A stretch of 51,369 nt of DNA from Thermoplasmata archaeon (lineage in GTDB: Archaea > Thermoplasmatota > Thermoplasmata > Lutacidiplasmatales > UBA184). Of this stretch, positions 42,914-49,664 are shown in pieces. The DNA lies in contig DAHUXZ010000015.1 of the NCBI GenBank assembly GCA_027315455.1, positions 1 through 51,369 of the forward strand, written 5' to 3'. A program made the position numbers and the translations under genes. How positions within the stretch are numbered: position 1 is the stretch's first letter; every line of letters begins with the position of its first letter. The notes beneath the pieces are model-generated. The model saw nothing but the letters and a program-made list of their open reading frames with translations, was not told where the DNA came from and ran no database searches.

Positions 42914-44023
42914 ATGAAGGACCGGGTCCGCCGTCTCTTCGCAGAGATCAACCCGAAGGCCGACCGCCTGCTGATCGGCAACGCGACCGACCCCCACCTC
43001 GATCAGACGTTCTTCTACCTGTTCGATGTCGCCGGCGGGCTGTTCGAGGGCTCGTGGCTCGTCGCGACGCCCGACGGCGCGCTGACGGTCCTTTCGAGCC
43101 CGCTCGAGGAGGAGAGCGCGCGCCAGGCCGCGAAGGCCGACCGCGATGTCGAGGTCCATGTCTGGGCGAGCCGCGAGGAGCGCGAGCGCCTGCTGACCGA
43201 TCTGGTCCCGCCGACGTCGACCGTCGCCCTCAACTACCGCGAGCTCACCCACGAGCAGTTCCTCCAGCTCGAGAAGACCTTCTCCCGGGCGAAGTGGGTC
43301 GACGCGTCGAACGCGGTGCGCAAGACCCGTCAGATCAAGGACGCGAGCGAGGTCGAGCGCCTCGAGCGCGCCGGGGCGATCGGCTCGACGGTCGCGAAGA
43401 AGATCCCCGGGTTCCTCCGCCGCGGGGTGACCGAGCTCGAGGTCGCCGCCGAGATCGAGCACGCCATGAACCGCGAGGGGGCGAGCGGACGGAGCTTCGC
43501 CACGATCGTCGGGTTCGGCCCGGCGAGCGCCGAGCCGCACTACGCCCCCGGTGATCGCCCGCTCGCGCCGGGAAGCTCGATCGTCTGCGACTTCGGGGCG
43601 TTCTACCGGCGCTACGCGAGCGACATCACCCGCTCGTTCCGCTTCGGTCCGCGCGACGCCGAGCTCCAGAAGGTCCACGAGACCGTCCTCGAGGCCCAGC
43701 GGGCGGCGCTCGCGGTCCTCAAGCCCGGCGTGCCGGCGAAGGACGTCCACCTTGCGGCGCAGAAGGTCGTGGACGCCTCCCCGTGGAAGGGCCGCTTCAC
43801 GCACGGGCTCGGCCACTCGGTGGGGCTCGCGGTCCACGATGGCTTCGCGATGAACCCGACGATCGACGAGCCGATCGAGGTCGGCATGACGATCACCGTC
43901 GAACCCGGCATCTACCTCCCCGGCCGCGGGGGGGTCCGCATCGAGGACGATGTGGTCGTGACGCCGAACGGCTACCGCTTCCTGACCACCGCCCCGCGGG
44001 AGTATCTCGAGGTCAGCGCGTGA
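42914..44023 (+). CDS. M24-family aminopeptidase (Xaa-Pro dipeptidase type)
   Basis: 369 residues. A creatinase-like N-terminal domain (to about 140) precedes the pita-bread catalytic domain. All five metal ligands can be placed: Asp in CDFGAFY, Asp in ASDITRSF, His in HGLGHSVGL, Glu in VEPGIYLPG and Glu in GVRIEDDVVV. The enzyme should cleave peptides with proline at the second position. A GGAGG Shine-Dalgarno lies 4 nt before the ATG, and its stop overlaps the GTG start of the phosphofructokinase gene (GTGA), so it belongs to the glycine-cleavage operon transcript. Confidence 0.93.
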   Translation: MKDRVRRLFAEINPKADRLLIGNATDPHLDQTFFYLFDVAGGLFEGSWLVATPDGALTVLSSPLEEESARQAAKADRDVEVHVWASREERERLLTDLVPPTSTVALNYRELTHEQFLQLEKTFSRAKWVDASNAVRKTRQIKDASEVERLERAGAIGSTVAKKIPGFLRRGVTELEVAAEIEHAMNREGASGRSFATIVGFGPASAEPHYAPGDRPLAPGSSIVCDFGAFYRRYASDITRSFRFGPRDAELQKVHETVLEAQRAALAVLKPGVPAKDVHLAAQKVVDASPWKGRFTHGLGHSVGLAVHDGFAMNPTIDEPIEVGMTITVEPGIYLPGRGGVRIEDDVVVTPNGYRFLTTAPREYLEVSA

Positions 44024-46692: not shown

Positions 46693-47829
46693 GTGCGGGT
46701 CGTCCTCGCCTGTCACCGTTACCACCCGGTCCCGGGCGGCTCCGAGCGGATCGCCCAGCTCCTCGCCGAGGCGGCGGCCCGGGCCGGACACTCGGCGACC
46801 GTCGTGACCCAGCAGGAGCCCGGGTCCGCGGAGCGCGAGCAGCTCAACGGCGTCGAGATCCGCCGGCTACGGATGCGCCGGGTCGGCGGCGTCCGGGTGC
46901 CGGTCGGCTATCACCGGCTCCTGCGGGAGCTCGGCGGGGACGTCTTCCACCTGCACGGGAACCGGATCTGGTGCGCCGACTTCTACCTCCCCCTCGCCGG
47001 CCTCTATCCCTGGCCCCAGCTCGGCACCGGCCACGGATTCTACCAGTACGCGATCGGCCGGCGGCCGTGGGACCGGTGGTACTTCGAGCGGTACTTCCCG
47101 CGGGTGCTCCGCAACCTGGACGTCTACGTCTGCGACACCGAGCACGAGCGTCGCCAGCTGCTCGGCTGGGGGTTCCCCGAGGAGAAGCTCGAGCGCATCC
47201 CGCTCGGGGCCGTGACCGAGGAGTTCGCACGCAGCCCCCTCCCGGTCGCGGAGGTGCGGGCGAAGTGGGGCTTTCACGCCCCGCACGTCGCCGTCTATGT
47301 GGGCGGCTTCTTCGCGAACAAGCGCGTGGACCGCCTGATCGAATCCATCGCGCGGACCCAGGGTCGATGGGCGCTCGTCGCGATCGGTCGGGACCTTCCC
47401 GACTCCCCGTACCGCCGGGAGGTCTGCGAATCGCTCGCCCGGGCCCGGAACGTCGAGTTCCTCGCCCCCGGGCCGCTTCCCCGCGACGCGACGGTCGCCG
47501 CGATCCTCGCCGGTGACGCGGTGGTGAGCGCGAGCGAGTACGAAGGGTTCGGGGTCACCCTCGCCGAGGCCCTCGCGGCGGGTCGGCCGTTCGTCACCTG
47601 GCCGGCGGGCGCCGCGCCCGAGATGGCGGCGACCGGCGGGGGCCTGCTCGCCGACAGCCCGGACGCGTTCGCCGCGGCGCTCGCCACGCTCGAGGACGAG
47701 CCGACCCGCCGGGCGATCGGCGCGCGGGGACGTGCGGCGAGCCCGGAATGGTCGGAGGCGGCGATGGCCCGGCGCTACCTCGCCCTCTACGAGCGGCTCA
47801 CCGGGGCCGGTGCCGGGCGAACCGCCTAG
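46693..47829 (+). CDS. GT4-family glycosyltransferase
   Basis: 378 residues from a GTG. The GT-B fold is evident: an N-terminal Rossmann half with HRYHPVPGGSERIAQLLAEAA, and a C-terminal half with VAVYVGGFFANKRVDRLIESIA and the sugar-nucleotide motif SASEYEGFGVTLAEALAAGRPFV, whose E-x7-E glutamates bind the donor. It likely adds sugars to a lipid-linked oligosaccharide or surface glycan. It lies close to a second GT4 gene and a cis-prenyltransferase gene, suggesting a glycan assembly neighbourhood. Confidence 0.9.
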   Translation: MRVVLACHRYHPVPGGSERIAQLLAEAAARAGHSATVVTQQEPGSAEREQLNGVEIRRLRMRRVGGVRVPVGYHRLLRELGGDVFHLHGNRIWCADFYLPLAGLYPWPQLGTGHGFYQYAIGRRPWDRWYFERYFPRVLRNLDVYVCDTEHERRQLLGWGFPEEKLERIPLGAVTEEFARSPLPVAEVRAKWGFHAPHVAVYVGGFFANKRVDRLIESIARTQGRWALVAIGRDLPDSPYRREVCESLARARNVEFLAPGPLPRDATVAAILAGDAVVSASEYEGFGVTLAEALAAGRPFVTWPAGAAPEMAATGGGLLADSPDAFAAALATLEDEPTRRAIGARGRAASPEWSEAAMARRYLALYERLTGAGAGRTA

Positions 47830-48138: not shown

Positions 48139-48243
48139 GCCCTGGTAGTCTAGTGGTCTAGGATCTAGGTCTGTCGAGCCTGGGACTCGGGTTCGAAGGA
48201 TACGGGCGGACCCCCGCCCGTGCCGGAACTCCCGACCAGGGCG
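48139..48243 (+). tRNA. tRNA-Asp(GTC) with a T-loop intron
   Basis: A complete tRNA once a 32-nt insert is removed (73 nt mature). The acceptor stem is GCCCTGG (48139-48145) with CCAGGGC (48236-48242) and discriminator G48243; CCA is not encoded. The D-arm occupies about 48148-48163. The anticodon stem is TAGGT/GCCTG, with loop CTGTCGA and anticodon GTC at 48173-48175. The T-stem TCGGG (48187-48191) pairs with CCCGA (48231-48235). The T-loop TTCGAA (48192-48197) is continued by T48230 after the intron, giving a normal 7-nt loop TTCGAAT. It lies between two glycosyltransferase genes. Confidence 0.93.
48198..48229 (+). other. 32-nt tRNA intron at position 59/60 with bulge-helix-bulge motif
   Basis: The precursor folds as the archaeal splicing endonuclease requires. 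The T-stem is the outer helix. Bulge ACT (48228-48230) lies on the 3' side. A 4-bp central helix pairs TTCG (48192-48195) with CGGA (48224-48227). Bulge AAG (48196-48198) lies on the 5' side. Inside, an 8-bp hairpin pairs ACGGGCGG (48202-48209) with CCGCCCGT (48214-48221) around a 4-nt loop. Cutting after the second base of each bulge restores the T-loop exactly. Confidence 0.85.
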
Positions 48244-48314: not shown

Positions 48315-49574
48315 TCAGTCAAGAAGGTCCGCGGCCCGCGAGAGCGTCGGGAGGGTCCGTCCGTCGAGCACCGCCGCGTAGACCGCCAGGAGCCGGCGGA
48401 CGTGCAGCTCCGGCGTGAACCGCTCGAGCGCGCGGCGTCGGCCTTCGACCGCATAGCGCCGCGCCGTCGCGGGATCGTCGAGAAGCTCCGCGATCGCCGC
48501 GGCGAGCGCCGGCGGGCTCGCCATCGGAACGAGCCGGCCGGTCTCACGGTCCTGGACGACGTCCGGGAGTCCGCCGAAGTCCGTGGCCACGACCGGACGC
48601 TCCCGCGTGAGCGCCTCGAGGGCGACGAGGCCGAAGTTCTCCCAGGCGTTGGACGGCACGATGACCATCTCGACCGAGCGGTACCACGCCTCCTTCGCTT
48701 CCCCCGCGACGTGGCCGGCGAACTCGACCCGGTCCGCGATCCCTAGCCGGTCGGCCTGCGCCCCGAGCGCCGCGCGCGACGGTCCGTCCCCGGCCACGCT
48801 CAGCCGCAGTTCCGGGCGCTGCCGCGACAGCGGAGCGAACGCCGTGAGGAGGTCGTGGACCCCCTTGTACGCCTCGAGCCGGCCGATGTAGCCGATCCGG
48901 CGGGTCGCACCGGCCGCGGCGGGGGCGAAGGGGCCGGAACGCACCGCCGGCGGGATGCGGGCGAACGGGGGGAGATGGACGGCCGGTCGGTAGCCGTTCG
49001 CGTCCAGGTACTCCGCCAGCCGGCGGCTCGGGCAGAGGAAGACGCGGGTCCTCGGGGCGAGCACCGAGTCGAAGACGGCGCGCTGCGCGAGGTTGTACGG
49101 CCCGCCGAGGCCGACACGGCAGCCCGTGAAGAGGCAGCGGGGGCGGATCCCTCCGTCGCAGATCACCCCGCCCGGCCGCACGAGCGTCGAGATCGGGCAG
49201 ACGAGCTCGGCGTCGTGCGCGGTGACGACGAGCGGGATCTCGGAGGCGGCGAGGAGCCGGGCGATCGGGGTGAACGACGCATCGAAGTGGTGCAGGTGCA
49301 CGAGGTCCGGGTGGAACGATCGGACCTCCTCACGGAACACCGCCGCGAGCGCCGGGTCATCGACCAGGTCCCGTCCGAGGCGGGCAACGGGGGACGACGG
49401 GCGGCCCAGATACCGCTCGTCCGGTCGGGGCGCCTCGGGCCGCCAGTCCGTGAGCTGGATCAGGCGCTGGCCGTGGCCGGCCGCCGCGAGCTCGTCCGCC
49501 ACGGACCGGACGTACTCCTGCCCGCCGCCGGGGCGTCCCGACCAGCTGTCCAGCCTCAGGACGCGCAGGCCCAC
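48315..49574 (-). CDS. GT4-family glycosyltransferase
   Basis: About 419 residues from the GTG at 49574; the open frame extends upstream but that part is Ala/Pro-rich, and the TATA-like GGATAAGG element lies 28 nt before the GTG. The GT-B fold shows WSGRPGGGQEYVRSVADELAAAGH in the N-terminal half, HLHHFDASF and TAHDAELVCP, then the C-terminal IGYIGRLEAYKGVHDLLTAF and the donor-binding NAWENFGLVALEALTRERPVVATDFGG. A Cys-rich insert (CDGGIRPRCLFTGCRVG) near residues 155-172 is typical of one GT4 subgroup. It probably acts in surface glycan or glycolipid synthesis with the other local GT4 enzyme. Confidence 0.9.
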   Translation of the reverse strand: MGLRVLRLDSWSGRPGGGQEYVRSVADELAAAGHGQRLIQLTDWRPEAPRPDERYLGRPSSPVARLGRDLVDDPALAAVFREEVRSFHPDLVHLHHFDASFTPIARLLAASEIPLVVTAHDAELVCPISTLVRPGGVICDGGIRPRCLFTGCRVGLGGPYNLAQRAVFDSVLAPRTRVFLCPSRRLAEYLDANGYRPAVHLPPFARIPPAVRSGPFAPAAAGATRRIGYIGRLEAYKGVHDLLTAFAPLSRQRPELRLSVAGDGPSRAALGAQADRLGIADRVEFAGHVAGEAKEAWYRSVEMVIVPSNAWENFGLVALEALTRERPVVATDFGGLPDVVQDRETGRLVPMASPPALAAAIAELLDDPATARRYAVEGRRRALERFTPELHVRRLLAVYAAVLDGRTLPTLSRAADLLD

Positions 49575-49654
49575 GGCCCGCCCCGAGCGCGCTCCGGCGG
49601 ATAAGGGCGGGGTGGGAGGCGCGGCCCGGCGGTTCCCCGCCGCCGCGGCCGTCA

Positions 49655-49664
49655 ATTCTTAAGG
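49655..49664 (+). promoter_or_regulatory. TATA box of the cis-prenyltransferase gene
   Basis: ATTCTTAAGG is centred 27 nt upstream of the GTG at 49686; a leaderless start is inferred. Confidence 0.5.

Follow-up and report, generated by a model that had tools for sequence, protein, structure and literature searches.

The window, by which we mean the whole stretch of 51,369 nucleotides analysed here (contig DAHUXZ010000015.1 of a Thermoplasmata archaeon of acid-soil type), carries a tRNA-Asp(GTC) gene between two glycosyltransferase genes, one at 46693-47829 (+) and the other at 48315-49655 (-), and this tRNA gene is interrupted within its T-loop (Table 1). Once positions 48198-48229 are removed, the unjoined form of 105 nt becomes a mature tRNA of 73 nt in which the acceptor stem (GCCCTGG/CCAGGGC) pairs at 7/7 positions and the T-stem (TCGGG/CCCGA) at 5/5; the anticodon arm reads TAGGT-CTGTCGA-GCCTG, the discriminator base is G73, and CCA is not encoded. 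Removal of the insert therefore restores a complete tRNA-Asp, which is one of the properties expected of a BHB tRNA intron. A single boundary, and no other, gives the mature loop TTCGAAT. The sequence-only reading of this DNA had claimed a tRNA that is complete only without 32 nt at 59/60, an exact TTCGAAT loop after removal, and BHB-compatible junctions in the T-loop of a euryarchaeal-type genome, and its coordinates prove exact. Elsewhere the window encodes an IF-2 of archaeal type, which exceeds its NCBIfam cut-off, and a protein resembling TFIIB, which stays below its own.

Table 1. Parts of the interrupted tRNA-Asp(GTC) gene, in window positions
Feature	Position	Strand	Remarks
tRNA-Asp(GTC) exon 1, positions 1-59	48139..48197	+	sequence and pairing; anticodon GTC at 48173-48175
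T-loop intron, 32 nt, at 59/60	48198..48229	+	sequence differs in each of 41 Asp genes
tRNA-Asp exon 2: T60, T-stem 3' strand, acceptor 3' strand, G73	48230..48243	+	
T-stem 5' strand; outer helix of proposed BHB	48187..48191	+	pairs with 48231-48235
TTCG (54-57); proposed central helix with CGGA at 48224-48227	48192..48195	+	base-57 co-variation 82/82; not in the MFE fold here
5' bulge AA/G; putative cut after A59 (48197)	48196..48198	+	bulge starts AA in 81/82 genes
3' bulge AC/T; putative cut after 48229	48228..48230	+	ACT in 56/82 genes
Intron hairpin, 9 bp (48201-48209 with 48214-48222)	48201..48222	+	G48199-C48223 beyond bulged A48200

Standard searches pass over this gene: neither ARAGORN nor Rfam at its gathering score reports a tRNA in the whole window, and RF00005 matches the gene only at E 0.83. 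A scanner that tolerates inserts returns it as the single hit in the window, and returns 0 hits in 40 dinucleotide-shuffled windows (4.1 Mb, both strands counted).

The interruption is one of many in the same genome (1.98 Mb in 87 contigs, 94% complete), in which 14 of the 40 located tRNA genes have an insert at exactly 59/60, as called from sequence; further noncanonical introns are what the sequence-only reading had proposed to look for. RF00005 at E<=0.001 identifies 28 tRNAs, Asp not among them, and four of the five that score lowest have the 59/60 insert (Glu(CTC), Arg(TCT), Asn and Gly(TCC)), the fifth, Arg(GCG), having its insert in the D-loop. Extending the search to E 10 adds nine matches, which are the window gene and eight tRNAs that all have a 59/60 insert: Arg(TCG), Ser(GCT), Ala(GGC), Ser(GGA), Ser(CGA), Gln(CTG), Lys(TTT) and His. 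Leu(TAG), beside Gln, is interrupted at the same site, and Pro(GGG) and Pro(TGG) complete the 40 in an inventory that is itself incomplete (Ile and Trp, for example, are missing from it). Default RNA-family searches therefore under-call tRNAs here, with 27 above the RF00005 cut-off vs 40 located. A second, uninterrupted tRNA-Asp(GTC), which the sequence-only reading had named as part of the evidence that would count against it, does not occur among these 40 genes of the 94%-complete genome.

Comparison of the 14 introns with one another gives a mean identity of 0.568 vs 0.555 for shuffled sequences (sd of the mean 0.008), and the most similar pair, at 0.741, lies inside the shuffled range; with no interior similarity beyond chance, there is no sign that an intron has spread from one tRNA gene to another. 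An AT-rich peak near -35 upstream is equal (0.52) for the 14 genes with T-loop introns and 23 other tRNA genes.

Introns at other positions are also present in this genome. By eye, D-loop introns can be recognized in Arg(GCG), Pro(TGG), Lys(TTT) and Leu(TAG) (L028, L087, L081 and L088, respectively); those of Arg(GCG) and Pro(TGG) both start TACGGGG, and Lys(TTT) and Leu(TAG) have a T-loop intron besides. ARAGORN reports anticodon-loop introns near 37/38 in Tyr (L017, 34 nt) and Leu(TAA) (L023, 25 nt), so that the canonical site, or its immediate vicinity, is interrupted in this genome as well.

The distribution of the 59/60 insert extends well beyond this genome. Homologues of the M24 peptidase encoded at 42914-44023 of the window occur at 34 loci, 31 of them from Thermoplasmata archaeon MAGs and three not so titled; AcS1-3, SubAcS9-61, SubAcS15-25, AcS5-107 and SubAcS13-24, all MAGs with this M24 locus, are listed in a paper on the Lutacidiplasmatales (PMC9287336), a study that used tRNAscan-SE -A and in whose main text the word 'intron' does not appear. 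From 14 interrupted tRNA genes we built a covariance model, R1, with correct pairs for the acceptor, the T-stem and the central helix and a shift of one column in those for the D-stem and the anticodon stem; of 5496 first-look candidates in the host genome it scored 150, and in each same-genus genome at most 64. At E<=2e-8 there are 4-12 matches in each of the 36/36 same-genus genomes, counts that are model matches, only partly read as sequence; in the host genome all 11 matches at this threshold are genes with T-loop introns. Among near relatives (33 loci, L041-L073), tRNA-Asp was found in 26 and is interrupted in every one; the remaining seven yielded none. In total, the insert was collected from 41 distinct Asp genes, and all 41 introns differ, with mean identities of 93.1% for exons, 58.9% for introns (minus the last 6 nt) and 52.6% for shuffled introns.

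Outside the family, where R1 matches include uninterrupted tRNAs, the 30 loci that match best (from 24 genomes) comprise 19 T-loop inserts from 18 genomes, 9 uninterrupted genes and 2 without a call. T-loop introns are thus widespread in the class. Three genomes (G037, G039 and G042) have an uninterrupted tRNA-Asp gene, and in G038 and two further members of the phylum, L155 and L157, this gene has the insert; the uninterrupted Asp genes of G037 and G039, which belong to the same order as the host, are identical to the predicted mature tRNA at 69/73 positions, and at 25/25 from position 49 on. Across the phylum, R1 at E<=1e-11 finds matches in 11/116 genomes, five of them in the host family, a figure that understates the spread since the model was trained on the high-GC genes of that family. 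The 59/60 intron is therefore a clade-wide feature, a point that the sequence-only reading overlooked.

A 3-4-3 register can be drawn for the window precursor, with bulge AAG, central helix TTCG/CGGA (one pair being T-G) and bulge ACT; on its inner side a G-C pair is followed by a bulged A and then the 9-bp hairpin. This BHB fold, at -25.1 kcal/mol, is not the predicted MFE, which is an open T-arm with the intron hairpin at -29.0 kcal/mol, and its pair probabilities are 0.002-0.009. The energy favours the open T-arm, and the case for a BHB at this intron rests on comparison. We collected 82 genes, leaving out those with a stem score <11, without T60 or failing the D-arm pattern (the host's own Leu(TAG) is thus absent from the set). 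Opposite TTCR (54-57) in this set lies an intron tetranucleotide whose end is two bases short of the 3' site, and base 57 co-varies with its intron partner in 82/82: G faces C in 55/55, and A (27 genes) faces T in 7 and G in 20 (Fisher 2.9e-22, a statistic that ignores relatedness among the genes). Four central pairs are possible in 62 of the genes and three in 20. Of the 80 genes taken into the fold test, 74 have an intron core that folds over its full length, vs 506/1600 shuffles. The TTC bases pair at a probability >0.5 in 21/82 genes overall, 16/20 in the outgroup and 0/13 in the host genome, and in 7/14 T-loop introns of the host genome an A-G apposition replaces the fourth central pair, as in Ser(CGA) with its A57 (Leu(TAG) being judged by eye). 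The co-variation at base 57 supports a predicted BHB junction at 59/60. The 'textbook BHB' of the sequence-only reading is thus an overstatement: a 3-4-3 register can be drawn and has comparative support, but its inner side includes a bulged A and another fold is predicted to be more stable.

Splicing of such introns would call for a splicing endonuclease and a ligase. The RtcB ligase gene is present in the host genome. The EndA domain (PF01974) is absent from the host assembly and present in 54/61 genomes surveyed, including 30/36 of the same genus, usually as two matches ~540 bases apart. An M20 peptidase gene lies ~1.4 kb from EndA in 4/4 relatives, and neither it nor PyrE, a further neighbour of EndA in relatives, was found in the host assembly (the PyrE search had no positive control); as these neighbours are missing too, the absence of EndA is likely an assembly gap, and with the M20 peptidase gone we judge a real loss of EndA unlikely.

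The subunit type of the enzyme, which the sequence-only reading had proposed to look up in the full genome, can accordingly be read from relatives and not from the host. A relative's EndA aligns with that of A. fulgidus across both repeats, 3/3 relatives' EndA proteins scanned contain two PF01974 stretches, and the Tyr/His/Lys columns are invariant in 9/9 aligned EndAs (6 of the same genus, 3 outgroup). The CSL site was placed from chain 3p1y, which we take to be A. fulgidus EndA carrying the crenarchaeal loop and which has an extra stretch at that site, against 1r0v; none of the 9/9 relatives' EndAs in the alignment, to which the host's own does not belong, has an insert at the CSL/ASL loop site. 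By these sequence features the relatives' EndA is classed as a two-repeat, alpha'2-like enzyme without a known broad-specificity loop.

We consider it very probable that the window holds a functional, apparently single-copy tRNA-Asp(GTC) gene with a BHB-type T-loop intron spliced by EndA and RtcB, one member of a clade-wide set at 59/60. Anatomy, conservation, co-variation and the RtcB gene all point this way, and by analogy with the known archaeal EndA/RtcB pathway the steps would be as follows. In the precursor the T-stem would form the outer helix, T-loop bases 54-57 would form the central helix with the intron bases immediately preceding the 3' site, and the intron hairpin would be the inner helix; EndA would cut after A59 and before T60, and RtcB would join the exons to produce the TTCGAAT loop. 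The cutting enzyme would most likely be the alpha'2-like EndA seen in relatives, which has no known broad-specificity loop. One site may serve many isotypes since the near-invariant T-loop supplies half of the central helix.

The sequence-only reading had gone further and held that an intron at this place implies a splicing endonuclease of relaxed specificity. This would be an (alpha-beta)2 or epsilon2 enzyme or one with a CSL/ASL-like loop; the literature assigns relaxed junctions to the (alpha-beta)2 and epsilon2 types (PMC6379350, PMC12397907). The A-G appositions in half of the host's T-loop introns would be in keeping with such an enzyme, as would the missing host EndA and the finding that one genome (G011) has, on a separate contig, an additional partial match to EndA. 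Against this stand the alpha'2-like type and uninterrupted loop site of all nine aligned EndAs and the window intron itself, which can form a full 3-4-3 BHB with four central pairs, so that a relaxed endonuclease is not required for it; the implication is not supported, and we regard such an enzyme as improbable. Reviews describe alpha'2 EndAs, that of T. acidophilum included, as narrow, though with a full-length precursor the A. fulgidus enzyme is able to cleave at 37/38 where the junction is of the bulge-helix-loop kind (PMC6379350, PMC12397907). A different proposal, which concerns why the introns persist and not how they are removed, is that they are kept because they break the 3' half of the tRNA, where mobile elements integrate. 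This has been published as an idea for split and intron-bearing tRNAs (PMC3218864), and the three tRNA genes found near 15 integrase loci in five genomes (L175, L177 and L180) are without a T-loop intron; three cases are too few, however, since at the host genome's 26/40 rate this would arise by chance at ~0.27, and one of the three was called by the insert-tolerant scanner only. We treat this function as a speculative possibility.

Two further readings deny that splicing takes place at all. If the mature tRNA kept the insert as part of a larger T-loop, the open T-arm with its intron hairpin, the predicted MFE, would be the final structure; but base 57 co-varies with its partner amid otherwise free divergence of the intron sequence, uninterrupted orthologues exist, and the tRNA elbow needs the T-loop, which together make retention very hard to credit. 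That the gene is a pseudogene, or the product of an assembly or binning error, could be suspected from the failure of standard tools to report it and from the MAG origin of the data; it is rejected on the 41 distinct insert-bearing Asp genes, whose exons are intact and whose introns all differ, and no other tRNA-Asp was found in the genome, so that we give this reading the least credence of all. Splicing at 59/60 by EndA and RtcB is thus the reading we carry forward.

Introns of the T-loop that have BHB motifs are already on record (PMC6379350). Euryarchaeal noncanonical introns, too, are known (PMC3218864, among others), as also follows from the noncanonical-intron model of tRNAscan-SE 2.0, which was trained on Crenarchaeota and Euryarchaeota. 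The Thermoproteales (Sugahara 2008 and Fujishima 2010, as cited in PMC4033280 and PMC4090602) are alike in having many tRNA genes per genome interrupted outside 37/38 with BHB-type junctions, but in them similar introns are reported from different tRNA genes and at varying positions (PMC4033280, PMC4090602), and these hosts belong to a group with heteromeric, broad EndA; in the present clade the T-loop introns always lie at 59/60 and their interiors are not alike beyond chance, unlike transposed introns. The permuted tRNAs of Thermofilum pendens and Cyanidioschyzon merolae share the 59/60 T-loop joint, with gene halves in reversed order where the window gene has an ordinary insert (PMC3218864). 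The Atabeyarchaeia and Freyarchaeia likewise live in soil, are not thermophiles and have numerous noncanonical introns in their tRNA genes; they are, however, Asgard archaea in which 92-95% of tRNA genes are interrupted, at various positions (PMC11291895). The alpha'2 EndAs of A. fulgidus and Thermoplasma acidophilum resemble those of the host's relatives in their two repeats, Tyr/His/Lys positions and lack of CSL/ASL (PMC6379350, PMC12397907), yet they are described as narrow, whereas the host clade carries many noncanonical introns.

A literature search that does not extend to key older work, which leaves priority uncertain, did not turn up any description of T-loop introns as characteristic of the Thermoplasmata, nor of a single-site, class-wide set in the Thermoplasmatota together with an alpha'2-like EndA. 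Noncanonical tRNA introns have been described as almost exclusively crenarchaeal and as tied to broad-specificity endonucleases (PMC4090602, PMC6379350, PMC3218864), and the clade-wide set is in tension with the view that the two go together. We see about as much reason to accept as to doubt the broader proposal that a euryarchaeal class has repeatedly fixed introns at 59/60 and splices them, those with mismatched central helices included, by an alpha'2 EndA without known broad-specificity loops; if it is true, noncanonical introns can expand without an endonuclease of relaxed specificity, and the co-evolution model now current would be contradicted. With 14/40 genes interrupted at one site and a narrow-type EndA in relatives, the link between intron and enzyme can be tested with one purified enzyme.

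Two individual loci are of separate interest. At L128, in G038, a tRNA-Asp gene has an anticodon-loop insert together with a T-loop insert of 14 nt, and on the opposite strand of the same locus a second tRNA (GTT by eye) shows the same combination of anticodon-loop and T-loop inserts. In the host genome, the L022 match at 1501-1600 is called by ARAGORN as Arg(TCG) with an odd intron; its acceptor and D-arm are of the Glu(CTC) type, and it may be a Glu(TTC) tRNA with an unusual anticodon loop.
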